Part shown: positions 22,844 to 45,079 of the stretch, piece by piece
Layout: every line of letters begins with the position of its first letter
Position numbering within the stretch: position 1 is the first letter of the stretch
Assembly: GCA_030625775.1 (NCBI GenBank)
Contig: DAOUQC010000032.1
Coordinates: 1 to 48,841, forward strand
Reading direction: 5' to 3'
DNA length: 48,841 bases
DNA from: Verrucomicrobiota bacterium
GTDB taxonomy: Bacteria > Verrucomicrobiota > Verrucomicrobiia > Verrucomicrobiales > DEV007
Program-made: the position numbers and the translations under genes
Notes under the pieces: generated by a model
The model's database searches: none
What the model was told of the DNA's origin: nothing
What the model saw: the letters and a program-made list of their open reading frames with translations, nothing else

Positions 22844-22901
22844 GCTTTCAACCCGCCCTTGAACGATGCCTGCCTGCCCGTCCCTGCCTCCATCCGGCAC
22901 A

Positions 22902-23243
22902 ATGGAAATCAGTGTCCATGATGCCCACCCGCATCTGAATGACGCAGCAAATCCTTCTCCCCTGATCCGTGTGCACTGGATTGACTGCCGGGAGCAGGAT
23001 GAACACGCCATCTGCCGAATCGAGGGAGCCCACCTGCTGCCCCTGTCGAATTTTGCCGCCGCCATGGAGCAGGCTCTGCCCGAAGATAAGGATCATCCCG
23101 TCATCGTCTACTGCCACCACGGTATGCGCTCCCTTCAAGCCACTCATTTCCTCAGGCAGAAAGGCTACCCGAACACCTGGAGCCTGACCGGCGGAATTGA
23201 TTTATGGGCGAGAGAGATTGATAGCGAAGTACCGAGGTATTAA
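22902..23243 (+). CDS. Rhodanese-domain sulfurtransferase
   Basis: 113 residues from ATG 22902 (MEISVHDAH), the start that fits the family; an ATG at 22866 would add 12 Pro-rich residues. It is a single rhodanese domain with WIDCREQDEHAICRIEGA and the active loop YCHHGMRS (Cys about 81), then GGIDLWAREIDSEVPRY. It is cytoplasmic, with no signal. It probably moves sulfane sulfur; the partner is unknown. It converges with a second, membrane-anchored rhodanese gene, 45 nt away. Confidence 0.88.
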   Translation: MEISVHDAHPHLNDAANPSPLIRVHWIDCREQDEHAICRIEGAHLLPLSNFAAAMEQALPEDKDHPVIVYCHHGMRSLQATHFLRQKGYPNTWSLTGGIDLWAREIDSEVPRY

Positions 23244-23288: not shown

Positions 23289-23747
23289 TTAGCGTTGCGG
23301 CCACTCCTGCCACCGCCCCTTCAACACGTAAACGGGCTCCAAGCCCAATTCACTTCGCAGTCGTCCGGCAATCTCACCGCTGCGTTTGCACCGCTTACCA
23401 TCACAATACACAATCACTGCAGCTCCCTCGATTCCTTCGATCACATCCCGATGCCGCCACAACAAATCGGCCCAATTTTCCTGGTTCAGTAATAAGGCTC
23501 CCTCTATGTGACTATTGGCAAAGTCCTTGTCACTCCTCGCATCAATCCAAACCACCTCTCCATCCAGTTGCCTCGCTTTCTCCAAAGTGATTTCATTCTC
23601 AAGCGGTGAATTCAACTCATACAAAGCCGGAGCTTTAGGATGGAAAAAGAATGTGGTCAGCGCAGCTAACAACACCACTAGGGCAATCCATAACAATTCT
23701 TTCAATGCTCTCATCGGCAGCATCTGTGAAAATGGCATAGCTCTCAT
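23289..23747 (-). CDS. Membrane-anchored rhodanese-like protein
   Basis: 152 residues. The ATG at 23747 is supported by GGAGA about 8 nt upstream. A single helix (about 13-35, RALKELLWIALVVLLAAL) anchors a rhodanese domain (VVWIDARSDKDFANSHIEGA) whose active loop is YCDGKRCKRS, with two Cys. It would face the periplasm. It is the last gene of the respiratory operon, next to the DUF420-DUF1573 and Sco genes. A thiol or copper-related role in oxidase assembly is inferred from context. Confidence 0.82.
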   Translation of the reverse strand: MRAMPFSQMLPMRALKELLWIALVVLLAALTTFFFHPKAPALYELNSPLENEITLEKARQLDGEVVWIDARSDKDFANSHIEGALLLNQENWADLLWRHRDVIEGIEGAAVIVYCDGKRCKRSGEIAGRLRSELGLEPVYVLKGRWQEWPQR

Positions 23748-28005: not shown

Positions 28006-28773
28006 TTATTGAGCGTCGGGAGGAAACATCGGAGTCTGCTCGGCGAGCCATACGTCAAATTCAGCTTTTGGCAGCACTTTCACCGTTGCTACCATATTGG
28101 CATGCCCTGCCCCACAAAGCTGGGCGCAGACAATATCCCACTCACCTGTTTTGGTCGCCGTAAACCACATCGGAATCTCACGTCCGGGAATCGCATCCTG
28201 CTGAGTCATCAAAGGAATCGGTGCAAGACCATGAATCACATCTTTGGAGGTCACTTGCACAATCACTTTCTGACCCAATGGCAATACCAATTCATTCAAG
28301 GTGGCAAAATCATCCCAGGCATTCGGATCCTGTTTCACCAAGCCGATTCCATTGGCCGAATTCATTGCGCTGACATCAGTAAGCCCGATTTTCCCATCCT
28401 TACCCGCATAATGGAAACTCCAACGAAATTGCTCTCCCACTGCTCGAATTTTCAACACGTCATCACCGCTAGGCATCCCCTCGGTACGTGCCGCCCACAG
28501 AGGGAAAGCAAAACCGAGCAACAATACCACCTCGACAATCACCACTCCGATTTCCACGTGAGTAGAAAAATGAGAAGTTATGCCTTCATATCTCGCCTTG
28601 GGATTTGCTTTCTGATTAAAACGCAAAAGCACATAAATTAAAAATGCCGACCATCCAATAAACAAAATTCCCATTACCCAATGAACCATCTCGAGGAAAT
28701 GATCGACCATATCACCGTGTTCACTGGCGACCTCGGCCATTCCAATGGCTTGATTGATTCCCGCAATAATCAT
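28006..28773 (-). CDS. coxB: Cytochrome c oxidase subunit II
   Basis: 255 residues. Two N-terminal helices (about 28-52 and 72-95) precede a periplasmic cupredoxin domain. The CuA ligands are complete: the first His in VIHGLAPIP (about 181) and CAQLCGAGHANM (about 218-229). There is no fused C-terminal cytochrome c domain as in caa3 enzymes, so a separate cytochrome must deliver electrons. It is placed after subunits III and IV rather than before subunit I, which is unusual. Confidence 0.95.
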   Translation of the reverse strand: MIIAGINQAIGMAEVASEHGDMVDHFLEMVHWVMGILFIGWSAFLIYVLLRFNQKANPKARYEGITSHFSTHVEIGVVIVEVVLLLGFAFPLWAARTEGMPSGDDVLKIRAVGEQFRWSFHYAGKDGKIGLTDVSAMNSANGIGLVKQDPNAWDDFATLNELVLPLGQKVIVQVTSKDVIHGLAPIPLMTQQDAIPGREIPMWFTATKTGEWDIVCAQLCGAGHANMVATVKVLPKAEFDVWLAEQTPMFPPDAQ

Positions 28774-29224: not shown

Positions 29225-29551
29225 CTAAAATGCGGCGTGGATCGGATTCCACAAAGAATAGACCATCAATATGACCATTCCAAAAGCAAAGTAACAGGTG
29301 AAAAGAAGAATCTTATAAATCAAACCCTTCTCATGATTCAAATGCATGAAAATCAAAGCCACCAAGGTAGATTTGAAAGTGGCAATCGCCAAACCAACAG
29401 CCACATCCATGGCGCTGACTCCCGGCTCACCAAAATCAAGGAAATTGAAACTGGCAACCGCCACGGTAATCCCGGTGAACACCAACAAGGCAATTCCCAC
29501 TGCCCAGTATGCCTTTTTATGTTTTTCAATCTCTTCTGCAGAATCCACCAT
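29225..29551 (-). CDS. coxD: Cytochrome c oxidase subunit IV
   Basis: 108 residues with three helices, matching the prokaryotic subunit IV of aa3/caa3 oxidases (KAYWAVGIALLVFTGITV, IATFKSTLVALIFMHLNHEK, VILMVYSLWNP). FMHL is characteristic. It lies between subunit III (48 nt) and the small 65-residue gene (20 nt). Confidence 0.88.
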   Translation of the reverse strand: MVDSAEEIEKHKKAYWAVGIALLVFTGITVAVASFNFLDFGEPGVSAMDVAVGLAIATFKSTLVALIFMHLNHEKGLIYKILLFTCYFAFGMVILMVYSLWNPIHAAF

Positions 29552-29599: not shown

Positions 29600-31063
29600 T
29601 TAAAACAAATACATGACGGGGAACAGAAAAATCCAAACCAGATCAACAAAGTGCCAGAACAAACCGCCCACTTCGACCCGGTTGGCCATGTGCTCGGGAT
29701 CTTTGAGAAACAAAGCCTTGCCAAAAAACAAGAAGTAACCCAATACCACGATCCCACCGATCACGTGTAGACCGTGCAGCCCCGTCATAGTGAAATAAAT
29801 CGCGTAATACGTTCCGTATGCCGGACCGTGGTTGGAAAGGAATTTTTTCTGTTTGCGGGGCACTTCAATCACAATTTCACCATGTGAACCCAGCTCGACT
29901 TCGGCACCAACATCATGCCCTTTCTGCTTGGCATCCGCATGCTCGCCGTGCACTTCCTTGGCCTTATCATGACCGCCTTCACTTTTGGCCGACTCGTGCC
30001 CATCACTGCCACTTTCATGAAAACCATGAACATTTACCCGGCGACTACTCATCTGCCTGTCAGGAACCGATTCACCCCTGTCTTCCAGATAGTATTTCTC
30101 CATCTTCTTAATCTCTTCGTCACGAGCGTGATTCCATCCCGATTTCACCGCATCATCGTTGATCAGCTTCCACACCAAAGCTTGATCCTGCTTGGCTGTG
30201 GGAATCATTTGCAGGTCAACTTCGTGAACTTCAAACTTAATCGAATCCCCCAGCAGTTTACCTGTCACTTTGGTGCCATCGACAAAATTCATGACCTTGT
30301 CATCATAAGCAGACAAACGTGCGTCATCCGCATAAACCAGAAAAGGCTCTACGCTCACTAAAGTGTAATTACGGGTGATCGGTTTGAGAGCTTCCGGATC
30401 CGGCTCGTGCCCCTTCCTCTTCGCTTTCCATCGCACACTGCGCGAAGCCGCTATGATGCGATTAGTTTTGCGGCGCATCTTTTTAGCCCAGGAAGCAACA
30501 TTACCCACGTTTTTCAACTGGCCGTCTTCACCCTTCAATTGAAACTCCGGATTCTCTCCTTTTTTGATCCAATTCAAAAACTCAGTGCTGCCCGTAGTCA
30601 CATCCAAAGTCACCGTATTAGCTTCAAAGCGGATTCTGTCGGTTTTATCCAATACCACCCCCTCGACAACCGAGTTATCGATCAAGCGCATGCCATGGTG
30701 AGACAGCTTGTAATTATACTCGATCCCTTTCAGCACCAGAAAAAGCAAAGCACAAGCAATGACAGCTGCCATCCATGCCTGGAATTTTTTCCAATTGCCC
30801 TCTTTGATTGCCAACCAGGCAAACACAACAAACACACTCGACAAAATCAGCACCAGCGTATTCACAAAACCGTAGCGCACCAATTGCACATCCGTAGGCC
30901 ATGGATTATCCACACCGGGTTCCACGCCTAAACGAAGGAAGATGTAGGAGGAAAATAATCCACCAAACAACATCACTTCCGATGCCAAAAACAGCCAGAT
31001 ACCGATTTTGGCATTCCACAACCCGGTGTCCCGGCGAGCCTTTACTTCATATGGTATTTCCAT
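29600..31063 (-). CDS. coxC: Cytochrome c oxidase subunit III with large His-rich insertion
   Basis: 487 residues, against about 190-270 for the family. Helices 1-3 are normal (IGIWLFLASEVMLFGGLFSSY, VNTLVLILSSVFVV, LFLVLKGIEYNYK), as are the last two (YYAIYFTMTGLHGLHVIGG, GGLFWHFVDLVWIFLFPVMYL). Between them, at about residues 125-410, is an insertion of about 285 residues: a mixed alpha/beta part, then a His/Glu/Lys-rich tail with eight His between 346 and 394. The reading frame is continuous, so this is a true insertion. It follows coxA by 27 nt. Confidence 0.92.
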   Translation of the reverse strand: MEIPYEVKARRDTGLWNAKIGIWLFLASEVMLFGGLFSSYIFLRLGVEPGVDNPWPTDVQLVRYGFVNTLVLILSSVFVVFAWLAIKEGNWKKFQAWMAAVIACALLFLVLKGIEYNYKLSHHGMRLIDNSVVEGVVLDKTDRIRFEANTVTLDVTTGSTEFLNWIKKGENPEFQLKGEDGQLKNVGNVASWAKKMRRKTNRIIAASRSVRWKAKRKGHEPDPEALKPITRNYTLVSVEPFLVYADDARLSAYDDKVMNFVDGTKVTGKLLGDSIKFEVHEVDLQMIPTAKQDQALVWKLINDDAVKSGWNHARDEEIKKMEKYYLEDRGESVPDRQMSSRRVNVHGFHESGSDGHESAKSEGGHDKAKEVHGEHADAKQKGHDVGAEVELGSHGEIVIEVPRKQKKFLSNHGPAYGTYYAIYFTMTGLHGLHVIGGIVVLGYFLFFGKALFLKDPEHMANRVEVGGLFWHFVDLVWIFLFPVMYLF

Positions 31064-31090: not shown

Positions 31091-32989
31091 TTAAACAGTC
31101 TCCTCTTTCTCAGCAGTGTCTCCTGCTGCATCAGGTTCATTCTGTGGTGAGAAATCAGACTCTGCACCTGGCACACTGTATTCGTAAGGCCCGCGATACA
31201 CGACAGGTTCTACCGCAAAGTTACCATGAGGCGGTGGGGTCGGTGTCGCCCACTCCAAAGTCGTGGCATCCCAGGGATTGTCACTGTCAACTTTTTTACC
31301 AAAACGAATACTAAAGAAAAAATTGATAATGAAGGGAATCTGGGAAATCGCCAGCAACCAGGCCGAGGTAGACATAATGATGTTAAGATCCAGCATTTGA
31401 ATTGCCTCTCCCCCGTGGAAAATTTTTGCCACAAGTGAATCCCCATCAAGAAACACCTGACTCGAGATTTGCTCATACGCTTTCCCCCCGTCAAAAGCAC
31501 GACGGTGGAAACCTGCCATTCCCTGAATAAACATCGGCAGGAAAATACCATTCATGAGAATCAAGGACGGCCAGAAATGAAGGTGCCCAAGGAAAGTGTT
31601 CATCATGCGCCCCGTCTGTTTGGGATACCAATAGTAGATCCCGGCAAAAAGAGCGAAGATCGTGCCTGGAGCCACCACGTAATGGAAATGTCCAATCACG
31701 TAATAGGTATCGTGCAGGTGCAGATCGATCAAGTTGAAGGCCAAAGGCAAACCGGTCAGCCCACCAATACCGAACATCGGAATGAAGGCCGTCGCAAACA
31801 GCATCGGAACGGTGAAACGAATCGATCCACCCCATAGGGAAATTAACATCGAAGTCAGCAGGATCACCGAAGGTACCGAGATCAACACCGTCGTGGTCTG
31901 GAAAAAAGTACTCACACTCGCCCCCACCCCGGTCATATACATGTGATGGGCCCAGACAATGAAGCTTAAAAAACCGAGTACCATCACTGAGTAAACCATG
32001 GTCTTATACCCGAACAGCGGTTTGCGGGTATTATTGGGAATGATCTCGGAAACAATAGCAAAAGCCGGCAGAATCAAAACGTAAACCTCCGGGTGAGCGA
32101 GGAACCAGAACAAGTGCTGATACAAAAGCGGATTACCACCACCTGCCGCATCCATTAACACCCCGTTGTTCAGCACATCCGTCGGCAGATAAAAACTGGT
32201 CCCGGCAACTCGATCCATTAATTGCATGATGGCCGCCACTTCCAATGGTGGGAAAGCCAACAACAACAAAAACCCGGTCACCAGCATCGCCCACACAAAA
32301 AATGGCAGTCTCATCCAGGTCAGCCCCGGAGCACGCAAATTGATGATGGTCACCAATACATTGACCGCCCCCAACAGTGATGAAGTGATCAGGAATACCA
32401 TTCCCAACAGCCACTGGGTCTGGCCAGTCCAGAAAATATTAGAATAGTTGCTGTCGGTCATCGAAGCCAGCGGCGAGTAACTCGTCCACCCCACCTTCGC
32501 TGCACCCGATGGCAGGAAGAAGCTGATCAACATCAATACGCCACCCACAAAATAACACCAATAAGAAGCCATATTCAGGCGAGGAAAAGCCATATCGGGT
32601 GCCCCCACCTGCAGCGGGGTCACATAGTTACCAAAAGCACCAAAGGCCAAAGGCACAATTCCCAAAAACACCATGATGGTTCCATGCATGGCACCAAACA
32701 TATTGTAAAGTTCACCGGTGACTTTTCCTTCATCGTCCAGCCAAATCTGAAACCACGGCAACTCTGACAACAAAGGGATGGGACGCTCCGGGTAGGCGAT
32801 ACTCCAACGCATCACCATCATCAGAAAAAAACCAAAAGCGAGGAAAAGTAAAGCAGTAAAGCCATACTGTAGACCAATCATCTTATGATCAGTCGAAAAA
32901 AGGTATTTTTTCCAGAACGGTGGATTATGGTGATCGTGATGATCACCACCAGTTTCAGACTTGTCGTGAGTCGTGGTGGACGCGCTCAT
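31091..32989 (-). CDS. coxA: Cytochrome c oxidase subunit I (A-type)
   Basis: 632 residues with about twelve helices. The catalytic subunit is intact: low-spin haem His in GAMHGTIMVF, CuB ligands in LAHPEVYVLILP (with the cross-linked Tyr) and WAHHMYMTG, and haem a3/a ligands in GHFHYVVAPG. The HPEVY Glu marks the A1 group. Ala replaces the usual Gly before HPEVY. It reduces oxygen at the end of the chain and is the working oxidase of this operon, in contrast to the cbb3-like protein upstream. Confidence 0.96.
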   Translation of the reverse strand: MSASTTTHDKSETGGDHHDHHNPPFWKKYLFSTDHKMIGLQYGFTALLFLAFGFFLMMVMRWSIAYPERPIPLLSELPWFQIWLDDEGKVTGELYNMFGAMHGTIMVFLGIVPLAFGAFGNYVTPLQVGAPDMAFPRLNMASYWCYFVGGVLMLISFFLPSGAAKVGWTSYSPLASMTDSNYSNIFWTGQTQWLLGMVFLITSSLLGAVNVLVTIINLRAPGLTWMRLPFFVWAMLVTGFLLLLAFPPLEVAAIMQLMDRVAGTSFYLPTDVLNNGVLMDAAGGGNPLLYQHLFWFLAHPEVYVLILPAFAIVSEIIPNNTRKPLFGYKTMVYSVMVLGFLSFIVWAHHMYMTGVGASVSTFFQTTTVLISVPSVILLTSMLISLWGGSIRFTVPMLFATAFIPMFGIGGLTGLPLAFNLIDLHLHDTYYVIGHFHYVVAPGTIFALFAGIYYWYPKQTGRMMNTFLGHLHFWPSLILMNGIFLPMFIQGMAGFHRRAFDGGKAYEQISSQVFLDGDSLVAKIFHGGEAIQMLDLNIIMSTSAWLLAISQIPFIINFFFSIRFGKKVDSDNPWDATTLEWATPTPPPHGNFAVEPVVYRGPYEYSVPGAESDFSPQNEPDAAGDTAEKEETV

Positions 32990-33083: not shown

Positions 33084-33836
33084 TTAATTTTTACCAACCG
33101 GCTTACCGGTATTTAAATCTATTTCCGCTCCCGGCAAGTCGGCGTCCGCCGGTATTGCCAGCAAATCCGCCTCTGCCCAGGGAGTTGCACGTTTACCGTG
33201 TTTTTCACGAGCCACCTTCACCATCTCCGTCGTTACCACTCCTGTTTTGCCTTCAGGCATTTCTCCAAATTCCCTGCGTATGTAAGTCATCACCTGGGCA
33301 ATTTTTTCATTACTCAATGCACCCCATGCCGGCATCGGTTGATTGTAAGTCACTCCCGATACATTAAACGGCCCCAAAATACCACTTAACATAATCATGC
33401 TCAATCGCTCTGTTCCCCCGTCGACCCACTCTGAGCCTATTACAGGTGGAAACATCCCGGGCAATCCCATTCCCGTCGCCTGATGGCAGGCGATACAGTT
33501 GCCGTAAGTCTTCTTGCCGTCCGCCATCCAATCTTCAATCCATGGTTTTTGCTCTACCGGCCCACTCGCCCCATCAATTAACGGCCTGGGTGCTGCAACG
33601 TATCCAGGATAGATAAAAGTATCACTGCTGTTGAAAGAATTGCTGTAACCATTAAAATAACCGCCAGCCATCAGCAGAACAAGCCCCGCTGTTGCTACCC
33701 ATGAAATCAACACCTTGCTGTTACCTCCTGCAACCGGCTCGGGTTTCTCCCGGCGCACGGAATCATGCCCATCCCGGACAGCAGGACGCCCCGCCTGATA
33801 ATCCAGATTCGATTCTGTAGAGTTTTGCTCGTCCAT
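33084..33836 (-). CDS. Membrane-anchored monohaem cytochrome c (CcoP-position)
   Basis: 250 residues from ATG 33836; a GTG at 33842 giving a GTGA overlap with the upstream stop is the alternative. A polar N-terminus, one helix (about 43-62), then one cytochrome c domain with CIACHQATGMGLPGMFPP (haem motif about 112) and a Met ligand candidate in NQPMPAWG. It occupies the CcoP place after the ccoO-like gene but has one haem, not two. It is a candidate electron carrier to CuA of CoxB. Confidence 0.85.
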   Translation of the reverse strand: MDEQNSTESNLDYQAGRPAVRDGHDSVRREKPEPVAGGNSKVLISWVATAGLVLLMAGGYFNGYSNSFNSSDTFIYPGYVAAPRPLIDGASGPVEQKPWIEDWMADGKKTYGNCIACHQATGMGLPGMFPPVIGSEWVDGGTERLSMIMLSGILGPFNVSGVTYNQPMPAWGALSNEKIAQVMTYIRREFGEMPEGKTGVVTTEMVKVAREKHGKRATPWAEADLLAIPADADLPGAEIDLNTGKPVGKN

Positions 33837-33838
33837 GA

Positions 33839-34525
33839 TCACTTAGCCGTCGATACCTCCGCCACTTCTTCCTGTTTCTCTTGTCCTGGCAATTTAGCAT
33901 CCATTTTACGTGACAACAGATAATCCACCAAGGCCTCTGCTTTTTCGGTGGGGATGACTTCGTAACCCTCTTCCACCGCAAAACGCCCTTCCAGTTTCAA
34001 TGCATTTTCTGACTTTATGCCAAGAGGTTGCTTCCGGTAAAGGAGTTTATAAGACGGCATATTTGAATCCACATTCTGTGTCCGTGCGTTGTAGAGTTTC
34101 AAGTGATACCAGGCGCGATCCGTATGACGAGTCCCGATATTGGCCAGATCCTGACCAATCCGCATGTAACCCAACATCGCATGTTGATCATTGTTATAAT
34201 CCTCTGGTTGGGTCTCGCGTGCCAGACCATCCGCTTCATTCCCCCCCCAGCCCTTACGCCACATGTCAGCACCTGCATAAGTTGGACGAATCATTTGTGT
34301 GTGGCAATAAGCACAACCCAAAGAAGCATAAATTTTCTCACCATCTTTATTGGCCCCGGTCCAAACGGAAGGGTAAGCCCAGGCATTATCAACCTCATCG
34401 GTTTCCGCATACTTCACGGATTCAACCGAACTCAATTGCAAATAGGGCACCACAATGAGCAGCAACAAAGGCACTATAAATGCCGCTGCCAAACCAAGGA
34501 TGAAACGTGGAAACTCTTTCTTCAT
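33839..34525 (-). CDS. ccoO: CcoO-like membrane cytochrome c
   Basis: 228 residues. It resembles subunit II of cbb3 oxidases: an N-terminal helix, WAYPSVWTGANKDGEKIYASLGCAYCHTQMIRP (haem motif CAYCH about 74; quoted part shortened in the family as CxxCHTQ), and IGTRHTDRAWYHLKLYNAR. The single haem c motif is intact. It overlaps the ccoN-like gene by four bases, so the two proteins are made together. Electron transfer between ACIII and the aa3 oxidase is inferred. Confidence 0.88.
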   Translation of the reverse strand: MKKEFPRFILGLAAAFIVPLLLLIVVPYLQLSSVESVKYAETDEVDNAWAYPSVWTGANKDGEKIYASLGCAYCHTQMIRPTYAGADMWRKGWGGNEADGLARETQPEDYNNDQHAMLGYMRIGQDLANIGTRHTDRAWYHLKLYNARTQNVDSNMPSYKLLYRKQPLGIKSENALKLEGRFAVEEGYEVIPTEKAEALVDYLLSRKMDAKLPGQEKQEEVAEVSTAK

Positions 34526-36012
34526 GCTTTTGCAGTTTCTTCTGTTGCAAAACCGGCTGCCGCTTCTGCACTCTCAGCTTCACCAGGGTTTTTGTGAATT
34601 AATGTCGGCCCGTCCGTTTTCCGTCCCCAGCCAAAAAACATCATCAATAACTGGTAGTAGAATGCCAGATTTGCCATTGAAATCAATGCCCAGGCAATAG
34701 CCAGAGCAACCACATAACCCTTGCCCCGTCTAACCGCGTCCAGGAAGTCTCCGCTCCAGTCATCAATCGCCCCCCCTTGAGCCAATCCGGCAAAAATCAT
34801 GAACGCAACGATGGTAATGATGGCGTAGGACGAATACCAGAAATGGAAGCGAATCAGCTTCGCCGAGGGCCATTCACAGTTCGTAATCCGCGGCACGATG
34901 AAATAGATTGCTCCGAACATAACCATCGAGAAAAAGCCATAGATGATCATAATATCAAAACCAAGCGTCGCGAAAGTAAATTGCAGCAGCCGGCTCACTT
35001 CAAAATAGGATGAGAAAGCAATCAGCAAACCGTAGAGATTAAACATAATCCCTCCAAACACAGTAAAGCGCAGGGACGGGCTGTAACGCATCAATGATGA
35101 TCGGCCGGAAATAGTTCCCAGAAAATTCACTGCCACCGCCCCTATCGGCAATATCATCAGTATGATGGCAGCCCCGCTGATGGCTGGCATCCACGAAGGA
35201 AAAGGACCCCCTAGAAATCTATTAAACCCTGTCCACCCCGCCAGTATCGCCAGAGCCCAAAACCCAATCTTGGCTAATTGATAACTGTAAATCGGTCGCC
35301 CGACAATTTTCGGAATGATGTAGTATGCCGAGGACAGACCCACTGGAACGAACCAGAAATAAATCAGGTTATTCATGAACCAGGCATTCACTCCCGCACT
35401 CATCACTGCCGATCCCCCAGTGTGATTAATGATCAAATTTGCAGTGGCATAAATCCATGGAAACCACAGGGCTGCAGCGAAAATATACTTCTGGGACACA
35501 TAAACGTCACCCTCACGTCGACGTCGGAACATCATCATCAGGGATCCCGCAATAACCGCATAAGACAAAAACAAAGACGGCCAGAGATAGGCTGGAAAAT
35601 CGATCCAGGGCATTGAATTGCCATAACCGCTCCAGACTGCCACCACGCCGATCAAAACCGTCACATTCCACACAAAACCTGCAGTGATCAAAGTGACGGC
35701 GTTCTTTACCTCGACCCGGCACAAACGGGCCATCAACCAGATCATCACTCCGAATCCGGCCTGCATGGCCCAGCCATAAATCAGGGAATCCATGTGGGCA
35801 GGAAAAAGCTGCCCGTAACTCAAAGTAGGGCAGACATCCCATAATTCAGGGGCGGCCAGCTTCACTGCACTGGCAAAACCTAACAAGGTTGCTAGAAACA
35901 ACCAACCGGCTGCGGATGTAAAGAAAAACAGCACAGGAAAACGAACCGATCGATCGATCGCCGCCCTTTCCTGTACGTCTTGCGCACTTGCCTCTTGCAT
36001 TGCTTCACTCAT
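34522..36012 (-). CDS. CcoN-like protein lacking the oxygen-reduction site
   Basis: 496 residues with about twelve helices. The fold is that of cbb3 subunit I: FPAHMDSLIYGWAMQ matches the first low-spin haem helix (His73 kept), and YYIIPKIVGRPIYSYQLAKIGFWAL matches the region YYFVPKQ...RPVYSY...HFWAL. Gapless alignment to the family motifs gives: CuB His of YGHNA is Asn214; the CuB pair of GPHH is Asn264-Arg265; the cross-linked Tyr is Ala258; and the two His of GHVHSG are Phe352 and Ile354. No catalytic ligand remains. It has only four His in all. It cannot reduce oxygen; a structural or relay role is inferred. Confidence 0.88.
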   Translation of the reverse strand: MSEAMQEASAQDVQERAAIDRSVRFPVLFFFTSAAGWLFLATLLGFASAVKLAAPELWDVCPTLSYGQLFPAHMDSLIYGWAMQAGFGVMIWLMARLCRVEVKNAVTLITAGFVWNVTVLIGVVAVWSGYGNSMPWIDFPAYLWPSLFLSYAVIAGSLMMMFRRRREGDVYVSQKYIFAAALWFPWIYATANLIINHTGGSAVMSAGVNAWFMNNLIYFWFVPVGLSSAYYIIPKIVGRPIYSYQLAKIGFWALAILAGWTGFNRFLGGPFPSWMPAISGAAIILMILPIGAVAVNFLGTISGRSSLMRYSPSLRFTVFGGIMFNLYGLLIAFSSYFEVSRLLQFTFATLGFDIMIIYGFFSMVMFGAIYFIVPRITNCEWPSAKLIRFHFWYSSYAIITIVAFMIFAGLAQGGAIDDWSGDFLDAVRRGKGYVVALAIAWALISMANLAFYYQLLMMFFGWGRKTDGPTLIHKNPGEAESAEAAAGFATEETAKA

Positions 36013-36035: not shown

Positions 36036-36491
36036 TTACTTTTTCGCAGCGGGTTTCTTTTCAGGCGCTTTGGCTGCTTCAGTCTTGGCTCCTTCTTTTT
36101 TCTCAACCGCTACAGGTTTTACCTGAGCCTGTTTCAAACTAGTTGGCGACCCCGGCACCACGACTTTACTCGCAGCAGGTTTTTTTCTTCTCAAGTCCGA
36201 CAGAACCAGCTTCATTCCATCTGCCACCGGTATGCGAACCAACTGCTTGGGTTCGTCCACCACAACTGCCTGATTCACCAAATCGGTCTGCTCCTTGGTC
36301 ACCTTCGCCAAATTCTCGAAACGCTTCTCAGCCCGACCGTCTTCTATTTCATTTGCCACCACCTTTTCACCTGAGGTGCTTAAACAAAGCACCAAAGACA
36401 CGACGATGACAAATACGATCATTGAGACCACTATCATCCAAAAAGCCGTGAAGCGGCTTTGGGCATTGTCTTCTGGATGTCCTTTACTCAT
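36036..36491 (-). CDS. Single-pass membrane protein with Lys/Ala-rich tail, unknown
   Basis: 151 residues. One helix (about 16-38, AFWMIVVSMIVFVIVVSLVL) is followed by a soluble charged domain (ENLAKVTKEQTDLV, LVRIPVADGMKLVLSDL), and a low-complexity Lys/Ala/Pro/Glu tail after 110. It lies 7 nt after actF and 23 nt before the ccoN-like gene, linking the two modules. In standard operons a small CcoQ/CcoH-like subunit might sit here, but no family motif is visible. Confidence 0.7.
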   Translation of the reverse strand: MSKGHPEDNAQSRFTAFWMIVVSMIVFVIVVSLVLCLSTSGEKVVANEIEDGRAEKRFENLAKVTKEQTDLVNQAVVVDEPKQLVRIPVADGMKLVLSDLRRKKPAASKVVVPGSPTSLKQAQVKPVAVEKKEGAKTEAAKAPEKKPAAKK

Positions 36492-36498
36492 GTTCCAA

Positions 36499-38058
36499 TC
36501 AATTCACCACGTTCAAAGATTCTTCCAAGCGAGGATCCTGGCTCGGATATAAACTCGCTTTACCCAGACTACGCAGCAAGAGGTAGCCAAAGATGCCTCC
36601 CACCGCTAAGAATGCCAATAAATCATACCAGATGGCCCCGGAGATCGTGAGTTCAACCCCATGCGTCAACGAAACGCCACGCTCGGGAATGATAATCCAA
36701 TAGATATCCGAAATCTGCATCAACAACAACCAGACAGCAATCGCCACCATCAGTTTCGGAGTCTTTTTCACCGAGCGCAACAGCAGTGCACCAAAGGGAA
36801 TAAAGAAGTGGCCGATCACCAACAGAATGACGGTGTAGCTGTTAAAAAAATCAGTATTGCGCAAGAGATAGAATTTTGTCTCCTCAGTGATATTGGCATA
36901 CCAGATCAGGAAATACTGACTGAAGGCGATATAAGCCCAGAAAATAACGAAGGAGTGCATCAACTTACCCATCAGGTGGTAGTGCTCCATGGTGATGGTA
37001 TCCTTGAAATGACCGATGCTACGCAGGTAGGTCACTAAAGCCACAAGAAGCGCCATCGAACTCACTGCCGCACCGGCAAAAAGATAAACCCCCCACATGG
37101 TCGAGAACCAGGCATAATCCAAAACCATCAACCAGTCGACCACCAGGAAGGTCCAGCAAATAGCAAACACCGCGATGAATCCACAACTCGCACGACGCAA
37201 CCAGCGTGTGTATTTTGGATCCCCGCTGCTGTCCTGGGTAATTGACCACTTCCGCAACACATAGATGACTCCACCCAAACCAATAACATAAGCAAAATAA
37301 CGGAACAGCCAGAAGCCCGGGTTCAAATAACCGTGTTTGTGATAGAGCAGCGGGTTGCCATGCCCACCCTTTCCGTCGCCGTGCTGCATGTAGTGAACTC
37401 GCAATTCTTCCTTCAACTCTTTGTCATTGAGTTGTCCCTTCTCCAGTTTATCAAGATCCGCTTTTGCTTTATCCAAACGCTCCTGCAGAAAATTGGCCTC
37501 CCCTTTATTCTCCCCCGCCTTGGCCAGACCGGTAGCCGTTTCACCTTCCAATTTTTTAAGTGCCGCTTCTGCTGATTGCAGTCCTTTCAATTTGGAGGCC
37601 TTTTCACTGTCCAAATGTGCGTCGGCATACTTATCCGCTCCATCCTCCAGAGCCACTTGCTCAGGAATCCATTCCCACAGAGCATTTTTAAAATCACCGC
37701 AGAAGACCAAAGGCAAACCCAACAATAGAATCCATGGAGTCAAGCTGCCAAGATTCTCCATCAAACGCCTCACCAATATCCCCCAACCCGAGTTGGTTGC
37801 ATTGTGAACCAAAGTCCAGAAAATCCCTCCCACCGCAAGGGTCAGGAAAAACATCACCGCGAACAGCCATGAATAAGCCATCACCGAGCGACGTGACACT
37901 TCCCCGTCTTCTCCACCTCCTGTCACCGCCAGAATGGCAAAGAGAAGCAAGCATGCTCCACCGCCTATCAAAAACAGGCTTTTCAACTTCCCTGTTTTTG
38001 ATTTATTCAGAGCTTCCCCGTCTTTTGGGAAATCATCTGCTGACTTAAGTGCGCTCAT
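36499..38058 (-). CDS. actF: ACIII quinol-oxidising complex subunit ActF, with coiled-coil insertion
   Basis: 519 residues, longer than the usual ActF of about 400. It has about ten helices in the NrfD-like pattern. Residues about 135-230, between helices 3 and 4, form a charged coiled-coil-like insertion (LKGLQSAEAALKKLEG, LQERLDKAKADLDKLEKG). After it, HGNPLLYHKHGYLNPGFWLFR resumes the family sequence. ActF anchors ACIII in the membrane. It is the last act gene and follows actE by 27 nt. Confidence 0.9.
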   Translation of the reverse strand: MSALKSADDFPKDGEALNKSKTGKLKSLFLIGGGACLLLFAILAVTGGGEDGEVSRRSVMAYSWLFAVMFFLTLAVGGIFWTLVHNATNSGWGILVRRLMENLGSLTPWILLLGLPLVFCGDFKNALWEWIPEQVALEDGADKYADAHLDSEKASKLKGLQSAEAALKKLEGETATGLAKAGENKGEANFLQERLDKAKADLDKLEKGQLNDKELKEELRVHYMQHGDGKGGHGNPLLYHKHGYLNPGFWLFRYFAYVIGLGGVIYVLRKWSITQDSSGDPKYTRWLRRASCGFIAVFAICWTFLVVDWLMVLDYAWFSTMWGVYLFAGAAVSSMALLVALVTYLRSIGHFKDTITMEHYHLMGKLMHSFVIFWAYIAFSQYFLIWYANITEETKFYLLRNTDFFNSYTVILLVIGHFFIPFGALLLRSVKKTPKLMVAIAVWLLLMQISDIYWIIIPERGVSLTHGVELTISGAIWYDLLAFLAVGGIFGYLLLRSLGKASLYPSQDPRLEESLNVVN

Positions 38059-38085: not shown

Positions 38086-38766
38086 TTACTTTCCAGCTTG
38101 TTCAAAAGCCTTTTTTACATCCCCCTCGTTTTTTGCCGACGAAGAAAACTGCAATGCTCTTACATAAGCAACGATCGCCCAGCGATCCTGCACGGTGATG
38201 ATGCCTTTATACGAGCCCATCAAACCTTTACCATTGGTCATCGCTGAATAAATCTGACCGTCGGGAGCTGCCTTGAGCAATGGGTCCAGCAAGTTAGCCG
38301 TTGGAGGAAAACCCATCCAATAATTAGCCACTGCACTTTTGCCATTGCCCGACAAGCCGTGACACATCGAACACTTGATATCAAATTGCTGCTGGCCGCG
38401 TTTTAAAAATCCGGCATCTACTTTCACTGGAGCAGGAATGCCGTCTCCATAATAATCACCAAACCGGCCGGTATTATAATAGTCATCCCCATGGCTGAAT
38501 CCAAAAGCGGCTATCGCTTTTCCATTCGCGGCACGATCACTACCCTGCGGAAGCTCAAAACCGATCGGCACCGTACCGGACACCGGCAAGCGTGACCCAT
38601 AGCCATCGGCAAACTTGTCACTGGGTTTCTGGTATTTCACCTTGTACTGACGATCCATGTCAGGAAACAACTCCATCGGCGGCTGTGTGAAACGCGTACC
38701 CCGAACCCCGATCGCCGAAACCACGGCCACCGTTACGATAAACAAAATGAGAAAAAACCAGCGCAT
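38086..38766 (-). CDS. actE: ACIII cytochrome c subunit ActE
   Basis: 226 residues. The N-terminal helix (MRWFFLILFIVTVAVVSAIG) is followed by RGTRFTQPPMELFPDMDRQ, typical of ActE, and one haem c motif in IKCSMCHGLSGNG (about 134). SYKGIITVQDRWAIVAYVRAL is the cytochrome c C-terminal helix. It is the likely outlet of electrons from ACIII. The gene lies 19 nt after actD. Confidence 0.93.
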   Translation of the reverse strand: MRWFFLILFIVTVAVVSAIGVRGTRFTQPPMELFPDMDRQYKVKYQKPSDKFADGYGSRLPVSGTVPIGFELPQGSDRAANGKAIAAFGFSHGDDYYNTGRFGDYYGDGIPAPVKVDAGFLKRGQQQFDIKCSMCHGLSGNGKSAVANYWMGFPPTANLLDPLLKAAPDGQIYSAMTNGKGLMGSYKGIITVQDRWAIVAYVRALQFSSSAKNEGDVKKAFEQAGK

Positions 38767-38785: not shown

Positions 38786-39346
38786 TCACACTTCTTCTTC
38801 GACCAACTCCACCACCTTTGCCCCTACGGACTCCAACAATTCTTTCGTTTTTTCCCGGGAAAATTTCGGGTCACGGGCTTCAATCGACATAATAAATCCG
38901 TCATCGGAAAACTTCAGGAAAGTCTTCGAGTTGAATAGCGGGTGATTCAATCGCGGCAACATCAGAATCACCAGCAAACCACCCAACACTGCAAAAGCAG
39001 CGATTAAAATTGTCAGTTCGAAAATCACCGGAAAAAATGCCGGCAGTGTTGAGAAATCAGTCGGTTTGCCCTGCACCACTGTCGGATACAAAGTGACCTG
39101 GGTGAAAAACTGCAAAAACAAAGCAGTCAAACCACCTGTTGCCCCGCCTGCCAGAACCAAAGCCGACAGCCAGGATTTTTTCAATCCCATCGCATGATCC
39201 ATTCCATGAATCGGATAAGGCGTGTGCACATCCCAACGCTTAAAACCTGCATCGCGCACTTTTTCCGCAGCATGGTAAATCGCCGAAGCACTTTCGAACT
39301 CCGCGACGTAACCGTAGGCCGGTTTGCTGTTAGTTGTTCCCTTCAC
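38786..39346 (-). CDS. actD: ACIII subunit ActD (DUF3341)
   Basis: 186 residues. A small alpha/beta domain (YGYVAEFESASAIYHAAEKV, WDVHTPYPIHGMDHAMGL) and two membrane helices (LSALVLAGGATGGLTALFLQ, LTILIAAFAVLGGLLVI) match DUF3341, the ActD subunit. The tail is acidic. It is part of act order A-B-C-D-E-F and follows actC by 36 nt. Confidence 0.92.
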   Translation of the reverse strand: MKGTTNSKPAYGYVAEFESASAIYHAAEKVRDAGFKRWDVHTPYPIHGMDHAMGLKKSWLSALVLAGGATGGLTALFLQFFTQVTLYPTVVQGKPTDFSTLPAFFPVIFELTILIAAFAVLGGLLVILMLPRLNHPLFNSKTFLKFSDDGFIMSIEARDPKFSREKTKELLESVGAKVVELVEEEV

Positions 39347-39382: not shown

Positions 39383-40828
39383 TCAGGCATCTGCCCCTGC
39401 TCGTCCTTTTTTCAGCTTCTGCCAATCCGGATAATGAGCATCCGATTCCGGCAGCACACCTTTCACTTCACTGATCGCGATCACCGGCAAAAAGCGGATG
39501 AACAGAAGGAACAGCGACATAAATAATCCAAAGGTGCCAGCAAACATCAACCACTCCACCCAGGTCGGGCTGTAATAACCCCACTGTCCAGGCAGGAAGT
39601 CACGTGCCAGAGTAGTGGTAATGATCACAAATCGTTCGAACCACATACCTGCGTTCACAAACATGACGACGATGAATACCAGCCACAACGTACGACGGGC
39701 TTTATCGAACCAGAATATTTGCGGAGCAATTACGTTACAGAAAAACATGCAGAAGTAAGCCCAGGTGTAGGGGCCGTTGACAATTCGCAGGTAAAAAGCA
39801 TCCCCCTCATATTTGCTGCCTGAAAAGTAAGCCATGAACAGCTCCATGATGTAGGCGTATCCCACAATCGTTCCGGTCAGCAGGATGATCTTCGCCATGT
39901 TGTCGATATGCTTCAGAGTGAACATATCCTGCAATCCATAAAGGCTACGCACGGGAATCATCAAAGTCAGCACCATGGCAAATCCGCCAAATACCGCTCC
40001 GGCCACAAAATAAGGCGGGAAAATCGTCGTATGCCAACCCGGCACAATAGAAGTCGCGAAATCAAACGATACCACCGAGTGCACCGACAAAACCAGCGGA
40101 GTCGAAAGAGCCGCCAAAAGCAAGTAGCCCATTTCGTAATGTTTCCAAGCCCGGTTGCCACCGCGCCAGCCAAGGGCGAACAGACCATACAAAAATTTGC
40201 GCACCTTGCTAGTCGCACGATCCCGCAGAGTCGCCAGATCAGGGATCAAGCCGATGTACCAGAAAATCACTGATACCGTAAAATAAGTCGATACCGCAAA
40301 CACATCCCATAGCAAGGGACTCTTGAAGTTCTGCCAGATCTCATTGGAGTTGGGAACCGGCGCCAAAAACCACACCATCCAGAAACGTCCAACGTGAAAA
40401 CCAGGATAAATACCCGCACAAACCACCGCAAACAAGGTCATCGCTTCTGCCGCCCGGTTGACCGAGGTCCGCCATTTCTGACGGGTCAAAAACAAAATTG
40501 CCGAAATCAGGGTTCCGGCATGACCAATACCAATCCAAAACACAAAGTTCACAATTGCCCACCCCCAAGCTACTGGTTGGTTATTCCCCCATACTCCAAC
40601 CCCGGTAGAAACCAGATAGACCAGCGTATAACCCAGACAAGCTGCCAGCAAGACTGCCGGCACGAACAATACCCACCAGATGAAAGGCTGACGGTTTTCC
40701 ACAATACCGCAGATGCGATCCGTGATCCAGCTCATCGAGCGGTTATTCAGAATCAACGACTCACGCTTCACCCCTGGAGCTTCGCTCGGGTGCACCGTCT
40801 GATTCGAATCTGTTGTTCCCTTAGCCAT
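39383..40828 (-). CDS. actC: ACIII membrane subunit ActC (NrfD/PsrC family)
   Basis: 481 residues with about ten helices. NrfD-like features are the [19 protein letters not shown] segment with the conserved GHAGT, and [26 protein letters not shown]. It carries the quinol-binding site of ACIII in known structures. The start lies 54 nt after actB. Confidence 0.95.
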
Positions 40829-40882: not shown

Positions 40883-43800
40883 TTACAGCATCTCCGATGT
40901 GGCCTTGCCCACTTTTGCTGCCTCTGGCATTTTTGGATTTGGATTCCGAACCCTGCCGAGATAAGTCGTACGGGCGCGTATGCCGAGATACTTCAGCAAC
41001 TCGTAGTTACGTGGTGAATCTTTGGCATTCTTCTGATTCACATCATCTTTCGGATTTCTCAGATTTCCAAAAATGATCGCATCCGACGGGCAGGCTACCT
41101 GACAAGCTGTTTCCACTTTATTAGCAGCTACCTGAACATCTGCCGATTCCCTGGCTTTGGCTTTGGCCGCTACTTTTGCCGTCGTGATCCGCTGCACACA
41201 ATAGGTACATTTTTCAATCACCCCACGCATACGGACGGTGACATTCGGATTTTTCTGCAACTTTTCAGTTGTTGTTGCATTGCCTTCAGCCGGCGCCAAA
41301 GGACCAAGCCGTAGCTTGTCGAGCGGACGCTTGTTAAAATCGAAATAGTTGAATCGCCGTGATTTGTAAGGACAGTTATTGGCGCAATAACGAGTACCGA
41401 TACAGCGATTGTACGTCATCGCATTCAAACCATCACTGGTATGAACCGTGGCGTTCACCGGACAAACCGTTTCACAAGGAGCCTCTTCACATTGCGCACA
41501 ACCAATCGGTTGAGGAAGCATTTCAATATTGTCATCGTCCACCTTGCGACGTCCAGGGCGATCCCCGTCCCCTTTTCTGAACTGGCTCGCAAGATCTTCC
41601 TGTTTCAAGGTCGTAAAATAACGATCCATCCGAATCCAGTGCATTTCACGCCCATTGAGCACTTCGGCTTTACCGACAATAGGAATATTATTTTCCGACT
41701 GACACGCAACCGTGCAAGCATTACAGCCAAGACAGGAATGCAGGTCAATAGTCATCGCCCACTGGTGATCAGGATCGACTCTGAAAGGAAAGTTCCACGG
41801 ATTACTACGCTCGGTATCATTCACCGGATTATCCGGGTTGAGATAGTCCGGCCCTTTATACAAAGAGATATTTTCCGGAATATGCGCATCCATACCGTGC
41901 TTCTGCACCGCAGCCGGATCTGTTTCGAAATTTTCAAGGGTCACCTCACGGGCAAGGGCGCGGCCTTCCATGCTGTAATGTTCAGCCGTAAGAGCAAGGA
42001 TGTGTTTTTTGCCCGTCCCCTTCACTTTCGTTCCGGAAACCACATAAGACGATGCGGTCGTTTTCAGAGGATACGCATTAAAACCAACTCCAGTTCCAAC
42101 CCGACCAATCTCGACTTCCTGCCCCTTGACATCGTGGCCATAATAGCCCAGAGCCAGGGTGATGGTAAAATCTGCCTGCCCGGGATTTCTCAAAGCCGGC
42201 GCTTTTATGCTTGTATCCCCCACTGTGACTTCCAACAGCTCCCCGTCTTCAACTCCAAGAGCATCCGCCGTGGCTTGACTGATCAAAGCCGCATTGTCCC
42301 AAGTCAGCTTGGTGATGGGGTCGGGCACTTCCTGCATCCAACCATTGTTGGCAAATCGTCCGTCGTAAACTGCTGCGCTGGTGGTCAATACCACTTCAAT
42401 CGAATCGGCATAAGGCATGTCGACAAGTTTAGCACCATCGATCGCCCCAGCCACTTTGGCCATATCCACTTTCGCTGCAGATGCAGGGGAAAATTTCGAC
42501 TTGTCCAGATAACCATCACGCAAAGTTGCGTTCCATGCTTTTTTACTATTTCCCCCTTTGGGAACGAGAGCATTAAAGGTGTTTTTCACTGCATCCAAAC
42601 CCGGAAGAGGCAAATCTTCCGCAGCAACAACTGCCACCGCCGACTTATCCTTATCATCCCCGTCACTTGCGGCCTTTTGCGGAGCCGACAACAGGCTCAG
42701 GAAAAATTCAATTTCCGAAAGACCGCCATACAAAGGCAACAACATCGGCTGCATCACCGAATACATGCCGGTCGCCGTCTGCAGGTCGCCCCAACTCTCC
42801 AAATAGTGAGCCCCCGGTACATGCCAGGTTGCTGCTTTAGCGGTGAGGTTTTTTCTCACACCCAAATGAACCGATACCGGCACTTGAGCCATCAGTTCAG
42901 TGAAATTCAAATCGGCAGGCGCATCAAAAACAGGATCCGATTCGCCTACGATCACCAAAGTTCGAAACAGGCCGGACTCCATCTTTCCCGCCAAGGCTTT
43001 GATGCCCGGTAAACGGTCTTTTTGCCCGCTATTGACGATAGACAAAGAAGCTTTATCCCCCGCGTAGGCCCCCAATGCGCTGTTGATCGCAGCCACCAGC
43101 AAATGAACTTCCTTGTCATGCCGGGAACCAGCCACCACCAATGCTTTGCCTTTCGATGAGGCCAAATCCTTAGCCGCTTCACGAATCCACTGCTGATTAA
43201 AAACTGCTTCATTGACCCGCTTGCCTGTCGCCGCCACTGCTTTCTCCAAAGCAGCGTCGCCTGTAGCTTTGGCAATTTCACGTGCAAACAACACCGCCAC
43301 TTTCAAAGTCTGACTAGCAGGCAGACGCAAACGGTGATCCCCCATGCCTCCGGTCAGGGTAAAAGCAGGCTCCACCACATAAAGCCGGTTCATCGAATTT
43401 GCGACTTTGCCTTTGGCATCCTCTACCCGACGACCGCGGGTGAACTCCTTCACCGGATCATCACCGATACGGTCAAGCCCCAGGAAATCACAATCGAGCG
43501 ATAAAATCTTTTCCGCCCGGTCAAACCTCGGCACCTGGCACGCACCCTTGCCAAACAACAAGTCCTGCGCTTCCACACAGCCATCATTTGAAATCGCTTC
43601 GTGACGATAAAATTCAGCCGACGGGTAACGTTTTTTCAAGTCCGCTAACAGACGGTTCCGGGTCGGTGATGAAGAATCCCCTATCAGGAAAGCCGTGCCA
43701 TCACCCACTCCTTTTTGGAAAGTGGTGAGAAAATTGTCGGTAAAATCAGCCTGGGATGCCTCTTTTCCCTTGGCAAGGTAGGAACGCGAGCGGTCCGGGT

Positions 43801-44263
43801 CGTAGAGGTCGAGCACCGACGCCTGCATAAAGGCATCCGAACCGCCGGATACTTTCGGGTGCAAACGGTTGCCATCCACCTTGGTCGGACGCCCTTCATG
43901 AGTCGTCACCACCAGAGGATCCCCCCCCGGCCCCCCGATGCGTGGTTTCACCGTGGAATAAAACAAGGGATTGCCCGGCACATTCCACTCCACATGTTCG
44001 TTGAAAGGAACCAGAAAACGTCTTGGACGACGGCAGGAAGTCATGCCGAAGCCAGCCAGAGCGGTCGCCGCCCCCATCAAGCGCACAAAATTTCGTCGGG
44101 AAACCCCACCATCCTCTTCAGGAGCCGCCAGTTCCGCTGCCCCCTGGGGAAATTCACGTTCCAACCAGGACTGGAATTCCGGGGTTTCATCAAGCTCGCC
44201 CAGACTGCGCCAGTACTGACGGCCAGTGTCGGGAGTTTCAGGATGTTGCCACTTGCGTTTCAT
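40883..44263 (-). CDS. actB: ACIII subunit ActB (Mo-bis-PGD-like domain plus Fe-S domain)
   Basis: 1126 residues. A Tat-like signal (SRRNFVRLMGAATALAG, Arg56-57) precedes a molybdopterin-oxidoreductase-like domain (about 85-780) that in ACIII carries no cofactor. The C-terminal ferredoxin-like domain (about 840-1080) has four Cys clusters: CLGCNACTVACQ, CAQCEEAPCETVCP, CIGTRYCANNCP and CTYCVQ with CQVACP. These hold the chain of Fe-S clusters. C8 and C6 runs at 43921-43936 lie in the 5' part of the gene. It follows actA by 48 nt. Confidence 0.96.
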   Translation of the reverse strand: MKRKWQHPETPDTGRQYWRSLGELDETPEFQSWLEREFPQGAAELAAPEEDGGVSRRNFVRLMGAATALAGFGMTSCRRPRRFLVPFNEHVEWNVPGNPLFYSTVKPRIGGPGGDPLVVTTHEGRPTKVDGNRLHPKVSGGSDAFMQASVLDLYDPDRSRSYLAKGKEASQADFTDNFLTTFQKGVGDGTAFLIGDSSSPTRNRLLADLKKRYPSAEFYRHEAISNDGCVEAQDLLFGKGACQVPRFDRAEKILSLDCDFLGLDRIGDDPVKEFTRGRRVEDAKGKVANSMNRLYVVEPAFTLTGGMGDHRLRLPASQTLKVAVLFAREIAKATGDAALEKAVAATGKRVNEAVFNQQWIREAAKDLASSKGKALVVAGSRHDKEVHLLVAAINSALGAYAGDKASLSIVNSGQKDRLPGIKALAGKMESGLFRTLVIVGESDPVFDAPADLNFTELMAQVPVSVHLGVRKNLTAKAATWHVPGAHYLESWGDLQTATGMYSVMQPMLLPLYGGLSEIEFFLSLLSAPQKAASDGDDKDKSAVAVVAAEDLPLPGLDAVKNTFNALVPKGGNSKKAWNATLRDGYLDKSKFSPASAAKVDMAKVAGAIDGAKLVDMPYADSIEVVLTTSAAVYDGRFANNGWMQEVPDPITKLTWDNAALISQATADALGVEDGELLEVTVGDTSIKAPALRNPGQADFTITLALGYYGHDVKGQEVEIGRVGTGVGFNAYPLKTTASSYVVSGTKVKGTGKKHILALTAEHYSMEGRALAREVTLENFETDPAAVQKHGMDAHIPENISLYKGPDYLNPDNPVNDTERSNPWNFPFRVDPDHQWAMTIDLHSCLGCNACTVACQSENNIPIVGKAEVLNGREMHWIRMDRYFTTLKQEDLASQFRKGDGDRPGRRKVDDDNIEMLPQPIGCAQCEEAPCETVCPVNATVHTSDGLNAMTYNRCIGTRYCANNCPYKSRRFNYFDFNKRPLDKLRLGPLAPAEGNATTTEKLQKNPNVTVRMRGVIEKCTYCVQRITTAKVAAKAKARESADVQVAANKVETACQVACPSDAIIFGNLRNPKDDVNQKNAKDSPRNYELLKYLGIRARTTYLGRVRNPNPKMPEAAKVGKATSEML

Positions 44264-44311: not shown

Positions 44312-45079
44312 TTAACGGTGACAGGCCGTGCAACTTTCCGGTGGATTCACGTTCCAAGCCTCTTTCAGCCCTTTACCGATATCTTCACGGGTCAAAGGTT
44401 TCTCTTCCCCCTTCACCTTGTATTCTTCTGCAAAATCCTTGGCTGATTTGCCGGTCTTCTCTGCCAGATACTTGAAAAACTCATGGCGATCAACATCTTC
44501 AGCTTTCCAATCCAGATTGGTAATCTCATCCATCGGACGCAAATGTTTCTCCGGGTTGCGGTGACACTCCAGACAAAAACCCATCGACAGTGACTCCTCC
44601 TGACGCACCACTTTCATCTCGTTCACCTTTCCGTGACACTCCATACAACTCACTCCACGATTAACGTGGACCGAGTGGTCAAAATAAGCGTAATCCGGTG
44701 TTTCGTGAATCTGCACCCACTTCAAGCGCTCCCCCGTATAACCCTCGTAGTTTTTGTCGACCGCTTCCCGCAGCTTCACCAGCTTGTCGCTGTTGGTACG
44801 AATCGCCTTGTGACAATTCCAGCACTGCTCGGCCACCGGCACATTCGAATGTTTCGAATTCTCTACAAAACTGTGACAATAACGGCAGTCCATGCCCAGC
44901 TGGCCCGCATGAATACTGTGATCAAAAGGAATCGGCTGTTGGGGTTCGTAGCCCACCCGGGTGTATTTTTGAGTGGCCGTGTACCAAACCGCAGGAACCA
45001 CAAGCATTCCCACCACTGAAAGGCCAAAAATGACTTTCAGTGGAATCCAATTTACCCAGCGTGGAAAAAAATTGCCCAT
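44312..45079 (-). CDS. actA: ACIII pentahaem cytochrome ActA
   Basis: 255 residues. One N-terminal helix (about 15-32, VIFGLSVVGMLVVPAVWY) and five CxxCH motifs: CRYCH (65), CWNCH (86), CMECH (145), CLECH (169) and CTACH near the C-terminus. ActA receives electrons from ActB and hands them to ActE or another carrier. It is the first gene of the long minus-strand operon; a candidate promoter lies just upstream. Confidence 0.95.
   Translation of the reverse strand: MGNFFPRWVNWIPLKVIFGLSVVGMLVVPAVWYTATQKYTRVGYEPQQPIPFDHSIHAGQLGMDCRYCHSFVENSKHSNVPVAEQCWNCHKAIRTNSDKLVKLREAVDKNYEGYTGERLKWVQIHETPDYAYFDHSVHVNRGVSCMECHGKVNEMKVVRQEESLSMGFCLECHRNPEKHLRPMDEITNLDWKAEDVDRHEFFKYLAEKTGKSAKDFAEEYKVKGEEKPLTREDIGKGLKEAWNVNPPESCTACHR

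Follow-up and report, generated by a model that had tools for sequence, protein, structure and literature searches.

A homologue of cbb3 oxidase subunit I that has lost its catalytic centre is maintained in a respiratory operon of a Verrucomicrobiota bacterium. Its gene, ccoN', occupies positions 34522-36012 on the minus strand of the 48,841-nucleotide stretch of DNA analysed here (contig DAOUQC010000032.1; hereafter the window) and encodes a 496-aa protein that lacks the CuB, haem b3 and cross-link residues of an oxidase. We read CcoN' as a retained pseudo-oxidase subunit, a membrane platform that would dock the cytochromes c CcoO' and CytC' on ACIII as an outlet to a separate oxidase, and put the probability of this reading at about 0.5. 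The proposal for the class as a whole is that an ancestral ACIII-cbb3 supercomplex became a haem-c wiring hub with a cofactor-free subunit I as its scaffold, a third route for the connecting haem; we hold this wider claim tentatively, at slightly less than even odds.

Loss of the active site

CcoN' is recognisably a cbb3 protein. Its frame is uninterrupted, its product matches Pfam COX1 (2.5e-40), and among named families it matches cbb3 subunit I, with a score of 104.6 bits against NCBIfam TIGR00780 (ccoN) that falls far short of the curated cut-off of 583.15. We mapped its ligand positions with a phmmer alignment to Pseudomonas stutzeri CcoN (3mk7_A) and with MAFFT alignments. The CuB ligands are His207, His257 and His258, and a role is described for Trp203 (PMC3578206). 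All three histidines are gone in both alignments: H207 is N214, H257 is N264 and H258 is R265. The haem b3 ligand H345 is F352, the cross-link Y251 is A258, and of the two low-spin haem b ligands H60 is kept (H73) and H347 is lost (I354), leaving one of the seven active-site residues. The sequence-only reading had assigned exactly these seven states, and the software alignments matched it at every position; none of the CuB or haem b3 positions is matched by a histidine.

Ligand assignments other than those of CuB are taken from what we regard as established for the P. stutzeri structure. Further changes are R57 to F70, W203 to A210, E122 to P135, S240 to A247, Y317 to F324 and H337 to Q344; we take R57 to contact the haem propionates, E122 to be part of the Ca site, and S240 and Y317 to be K-channel residues. 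A misalignment concealing histidines is ruled out by the two aligners and by the fully liganded relatives within the same alignment. We also rejected NorB identity, since the three histidines needed for FeB fall at the same lost positions, and any NorB-type or other metal site, for which CcoN' offers no alternative conserved set of His, Cys or Met.

Predicted fold and selection

The cbb3 subunit I fold of CcoN' is predicted to be intact, on the strength of model confidence and structural matches. An AlphaFold2 model, a check that the sequence-only reading had proposed, was built with 69 aligned family members and reached a mean pLDDT of 94 and a pTM of 0.94. Its best match among solved structures was cbb3 subunit I (3mk7, Z 46.1, rmsd 2.0 over 443 residues), followed by NO reductases at Z about 40 (NOR 40.3) and A-type oxidases at Z about 34. 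As modelled, the protein has the 12-TM haem-copper oxidase fold and lies closest to CcoN.

Purifying selection acts on the gene. Among the window genome and two congeners, Nei-Gojobori dN/dS for ccoN' is 0.061, 0.055 and 0.055, values that are approximate because dS exceeds 1. In these genomes actB has 0.062-0.081, actF 0.064-0.091, coxA 0.032-0.050 and cytC' 0.093-0.180, placing ccoN' as low as the ACIII genes actB and actF. With its fold predicted to be kept, its catalytic residues lost and purifying selection acting on it, CcoN' would count as a pseudoenzyme.

Operon context

The placement of ccoN' between ACIII and an intact aa3 oxidase, first noted by eye, stands. All of these genes lie on the minus strand. 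Upstream are actA (44312-45079), encoding a pentahaem cytochrome c with five CxxCH motifs and no sixth haem; actB (40883-44263), a molybdoenzyme-like/FeS subunit; actC (39383-40828), an NrfD-like quinol-binding subunit (PF03916); actD (38786-39346); actE (38086-38766), the monohaem cytochrome c of ACIII; and actF (36499-38058), a membrane subunit assigned by synteny and matching no NCBIfam family. Downstream follow ccoO' (33839-34525), a FixO/CcoO-like monohaem cytochrome c with CxxCH and MP..Y intact, and cytC' (33084-33842), a CcoP-like, membrane-anchored monohaem cytochrome c whose CxxCH and Met170 are conserved in the family. Next come coxA (31091-32989), an intact aa3-type subunit I with its HPEVY, HH and HxH motifs; coxC (29600-31063), subunit III; coxD (29225-29551), subunit IV; and coxB (28006-28773), subunit II with the CuA motif CAQLCGAGHANM and no fused cytochrome c.

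The three central genes are tightly packed. As the sequence-only reading had it, a clean ccoN' frame overlaps a ccoO-like gene with an intact haem motif; both the ccoN'/ccoO' and the ccoO'/cytC' overlaps measure 4 bp, the first of them being ATGA, with ATGA and GTGA linking the three genes, and -4 is the commonest gene spacing in the family. A scan for promoters and terminators returned sites no more numerous than in shuffled sequence.

Gene order is shared well beyond the window. The arrangement actABCDEF-ccoN-ccoO-cytC is common to copies that have lost the ligands (stripped) and copies that keep all seven (liganded). Among stripped copies with enough flank, actF lies upstream in 134 of 134 and cytC' downstream in 146 of 147. 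A ccoO' gene was scored in 141 of 168 stripped loci under an overlap limit of 30 bp; because of that limit it went unscored in five further stripped loci (L067, L087, L088, L090, L097) and two liganded ones (L061, L066), where inspection found it.

Three neighbouring features deserve mention in their own right. Between actF and ccoN' lies a small, fast-evolving ORF (36036-36491, minus strand; dN/dS 0.10-0.19) encoding 151 aa with a Lys/Ala/Pro-rich tail and, by sequence reading, a predicted single membrane anchor. CoxC, 487 aa long, carries a long, hydrophilic, His-rich insert of about 270 residues, and most of 89 related CoxC proteins measure 450-550 aa. Beside the sco/cta end of the operon, two ORFs at 22866-23243 (plus strand) and 23289-23747 (minus strand) resemble, by eye, rhodanese-type domains.

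Partner cytochromes and a proposed outlet from ACIII

The two cytochromes encoded with CcoN', one CcoO-like and one CcoP-like, keep their haem c motifs. Among the partners found for copies without the full ligand set, CxxCH is present in 144 of 144 CcoO' and 166 of 167 CytC', and Met170 of CytC' is conserved at 99%. Position 156 of CcoO', the Met of MP..Y and a probable axial ligand assigned by motif only, is less constant: it is Met in 30 of the 30 CcoO found for the liganded set, whereas 32 stripped homologues have Cys there and several more have His, Ser, Arg or Ala. The haem potential is therefore not uniformly maintained among stripped systems.

Known ACIII-oxidase pairs supply a connecting haem c in other ways. 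The ACIII-aa3 and ACIII-caa3 supercomplexes of F. johnsoniae (Flavobacterium) and R. marinus (Rhodothermus) resemble the window in that an A-type oxidase is encoded after ACIII; the connecting haem is fused to subunit II in R. marinus and lies in an extra ActA domain in F. johnsoniae (Sousa et al., PMC5928083). The window uses neither route, because its ActA has five CxxCH and its CoxB none; ActA has five haems in 95 of 96 cases, and no in-operon CoxB contains CxxCH. Two haem-c proteins, CcoO' and CytC', are instead encoded between the ACIII and aa3 genes. As they are the only haem-c proteins there, we infer that CcoN' holds both on ACIII as its outlet.

A candidate receiving oxidase is not always encoded nearby. 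Where the flank suffices, 81 of 119 stripped loci have coxA no more than 12 kb downstream, against 1 of 22 liganded ones (Fisher p 1e-8, ignoring shared ancestry), leaving about one third of stripped loci with no CoxA downstream. An A-type CoxA is absent from 5 of 72 genomes searched; three of these (G057, G058, G170) carry the liganded form, G006 a stripped copy with a liganded second copy, and G071 a classical CcoN. Unlinked CoxB proteins (L240-L246) contain CxxCH in seven of seven and the CuA pattern in six, the pattern not being found in L245. In several families the unlinked oxidase is already of the caa3 kind, with a cytochrome c of its own. There the need for a CcoO'/CytC' bridge is less evident, and retention of the module in such families is the main weakness of the outlet reading.

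One of these genomes merits a separate remark. In G006 the stripped copy sits in the act operon, and the copy with all seven ligands, which shares 33% identity with CcoN' of the window, has its own ccoO and cytC and no act genes (L132, L133).

Distribution and residue conservation

The stripped form is spread across the class, including Brevifollis gellanilyticus, Prosthecobacter, Luteolibacter and Haloferula, and so is not a peculiarity of one genome. In Brevifollis gellanilyticus NBRC 108608 the seven positions read HHAQTFI, and the gene stands between those for ActF and CoxA. CcoN' homologues are present in 51 of 57 relatives and in 134 of 188 class genomes, some matches being ordinary ccoN. 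Of 210 distinct aligned homologues, 39 retain all seven active-site residues, one (L045) retains six and 170 retain three or fewer; the ratio of 39 to 170 is not a census, because the search started from a stripped protein. The 39 include four outgroups, which are C-type oxidases of ordinary or divergent type. The survey for lost ligands beside act genes that the sequence-only reading had called for thus returned the same pattern on a large scale.

Replacements differ from copy to copy, for example S, G, N or Q at H207 and Q, S, A, P or R at H257, and therefore point to loss and not to the gain of a single new site. Among the 171 copies without the full set, H60 is left in 93, H207 in 27, H258 in 21 and H347 in 13, and within the large stripped clade different lineages have kept different leftovers, which suggests that the remaining ligand sites decayed separately once the centre was dead. 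In one locus, L045 (1438-2910), H207 alone is changed, to Arg, and the six other residues are retained; this copy may mark an early stage of loss or may be an unusual enzyme that is still active.

Loss extends beyond the ligands and is selective. We defined conserved columns as those at least 95% identical in the 35 liganded family members (101 columns) and lost columns as those below 50% in the stripped set. By this measure 32 of the 101 are lost, among them all seven active-site residues, R57 (3% kept), E122, W203, S240, Y317 and H337, and 26 are still at least 90% conserved, mostly Trp, Gly, Pro and Arg. In the Verrucomicrobiales set Q84, W144, Q344 and W441 are newly fixed. H347 and R57 are lost throughout this set, and its only conserved histidines are H73, the H60 equivalent (83%), and H390, which is common to liganded relatives; no newly conserved histidine was found. 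Some family members in the same slot lack H60.

Origin of the stripped form

Liganded relatives hold the same act-ccoN-ccoO-cytC slot in other lineages of the class, which makes an ACIII-linked cbb3 oxidase the probable ancestor. In trees with other C-type oxidases as the root, liganded and stripped copies belong to one family. A single branch separates the stripped copies, L077 and L045 excepted, from the rest, with support 93 when the ordinary-CcoN outgroup is left out, and 98 in a 63-row set. L077 (genome G223) is nested in a liganded clade beside L072, with support 96, and 99/87 in a larger tree. G223 and G370 are from a family (f13) that contains both liganded and stripped copies. With L045 included, a single clade for all copies without the full set is rejected (AU p 0.002, 63-row set); it is not rejected without L045 (AU p 0.07) or, for all copies, in the outgroup-free tree (p 0.057). 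The larger, careful tree has six changes, its bootstrap unsettled and the branch of L318 very long; a quick outgroup-rooted tree gives no resolution of the deep order of stripped clades.

The best reading of these trees is one ancient loss and at least one later loss, the latter implied by the position of L077 inside a liganded clade; a single loss for the full set is less likely. After the loss in L077, ccoN alone evolved fast. Identity to an outside reference (L237) is 56% for the L077 ccoN against 76% for its sister L072, and for the neighbouring genes it is nearly equal (actB 67 against 70, actC 86 against 87).

Two further loci, L115 (8424-10064) and L136 (8549-10405), encode a liganded but divergent subunit I of the C type, with the motif GTHHF, next to a CcoO-like partner that has two haems; both genomes also contain a stripped copy.

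Proposed role and alternatives

The mechanism we favour is a displaced oxidase. A cbb3 (C-type) subunit I from a working ACIII-linked oxidase would have lost its catalytic centre and kept its fold, and would now serve as a membrane platform anchoring CcoO' and CytC' to ACIII. Electrons would pass from menaquinol through ActB, ActA and ActE to the CcoO' and CytC' haems c and on to the CuA of a separate terminal oxidase, in the window presumably the aa3 enzyme encoded next door. O2 reduction would thereby have moved to the separate oxidase, and the old one would have become a docking and electron-outlet module. The scaffold and relay roles are deduced from gene content.

The sequence-only reading had argued for selection on a non-oxidase function, such as a scaffold or relay. 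Its first part is well supported by the dN/dS values, the predicted fold, the family and the slot. The idea of CcoN' itself as an electron relay fared worse: there is no recognisable cofactor, because the low-spin site has lost H347 (I354) and R57, and in some members H60 is missing as well. If there is a relay, it would consist of the haem-c proteins CcoO' and CytC', held in place by CcoN'.

A purely structural subunit is the leading alternative, though an unlikely one. CcoN' would then stabilise ACIII or an ACIII-aa3 supercomplex, with the CcoO' and CytC' haems off the main path. Its best-conserved residues, which are Trp, Gly, Pro and Arg, do lie away from the former active site, and direct transfer from ACIII to an oxidase is known in systems that have no such subunits (PMC5928083); against this, a structural role does not require haem-c motifs, which essentially all CcoO' and CytC' have kept. 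Quite improbable is a relic of assembly, in which CcoN' would be retained for folding or maturation of CcoO' and CytC', or for translational coupling, and would play no part in the finished chain. The ATGA overlaps at the family's usual spacing would provide that coupling, but a dN/dS that over the whole length is no higher than for ACIII subunits, together with the newly conserved Q84, W144, Q344 and W441, points to constraint on the mature protein.

Two catalytic or sensory readings have little to recommend them. A single haem b held by H73, making CcoN' a redox or gas sensor or a side branch, would explain why 93 of 171 copies, and 83% of the Verrucomicrobiales set, keep the H60 equivalent; we think it very improbable given the loss of H347 and R57 in that whole set, where no new histidine is conserved, and the same-slot relatives that have no H60 at all. 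Less likely again is that the oxidase fold now serves a new enzyme or an ion channel, whether with different cofactors or without any. The derived conserved residues of the Verrucomicrobiales set could speak for this, but there is no conserved metal-binding cluster and the K-channel-type residues S240 and Y317 are lost. A decaying pseudogene, the sense in which one might take a fragmentary copy in a complete genome (L318, 346 aa) and the lack of a copy, among listed genomes, in 20 of one genus, can be dismissed, being contradicted by the dN/dS of 0.055-0.061, the 170 stripped copies in many genomes, and a reading frame that stays open and an operon slot that stays constant from family to family.

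Relation to known systems

Like the cbb3 CcoNOP of P. stutzeri (3mk7), CcoN' has the subunit I fold, as predicted, with adjacent CcoO- and CcoP-like haem-c subunits; unlike it, CcoN' is without CuB, haem b3, one low-spin ligand, the cross-link Tyr, R57, E122, S240 and Y317. CytC' has one haem, and CcoP of cbb3 has two. The cbb3 of Nitrospina gracilis, with an altered W203, likewise departs from canonical CcoN near CuB, but it keeps the three CuB histidines that CcoN' has lost (PMC3578206).

A published parallel is a C-type oxidase adjoining ACIII in Opitutaceae and verrucomicrobial methanotrophs, as reported in PMC8498564, citing Refojo et al. 2010. Those systems share the order actABCDEF-ccoN-ccoO-cytC. 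They are described as oxidases, a role closed to the stripped copies, and our liganded relatives probably belong to that group. A C-type oxidase beside ACIII is thus already known. Text searches of a library with few subscription papers, which are weak evidence of novelty, yielded no earlier description of an inactive or ligand-less CcoN, nor of a catalytic subunit in this slot that has lost its ligands in most sampled copies.

If the proposed role is right, a haem-copper oxidase subunit I can persist through long periods of evolution in a non-catalytic role, and comparison of intact with stripped copies would separate what assembly needs (the 26 columns kept) from what catalysis needs (the 32 lost). 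It would also offer a testable proposal for electron transfer from ACIII to an aa3 oxidase without a fused cytochrome c. Because the COX1 and ccoN profiles still match, automatic annotation may call stripped proteins cbb3 oxidases, and genomes credited with high-affinity O2 respiration from a stripped copy may be misread.

Outside the class, at four loci (L311, L312, L313, L314), a liganded CcoN-CcoO pair adjoins not ACIII but a protein of about 600 aa with seven CxxCH motifs.
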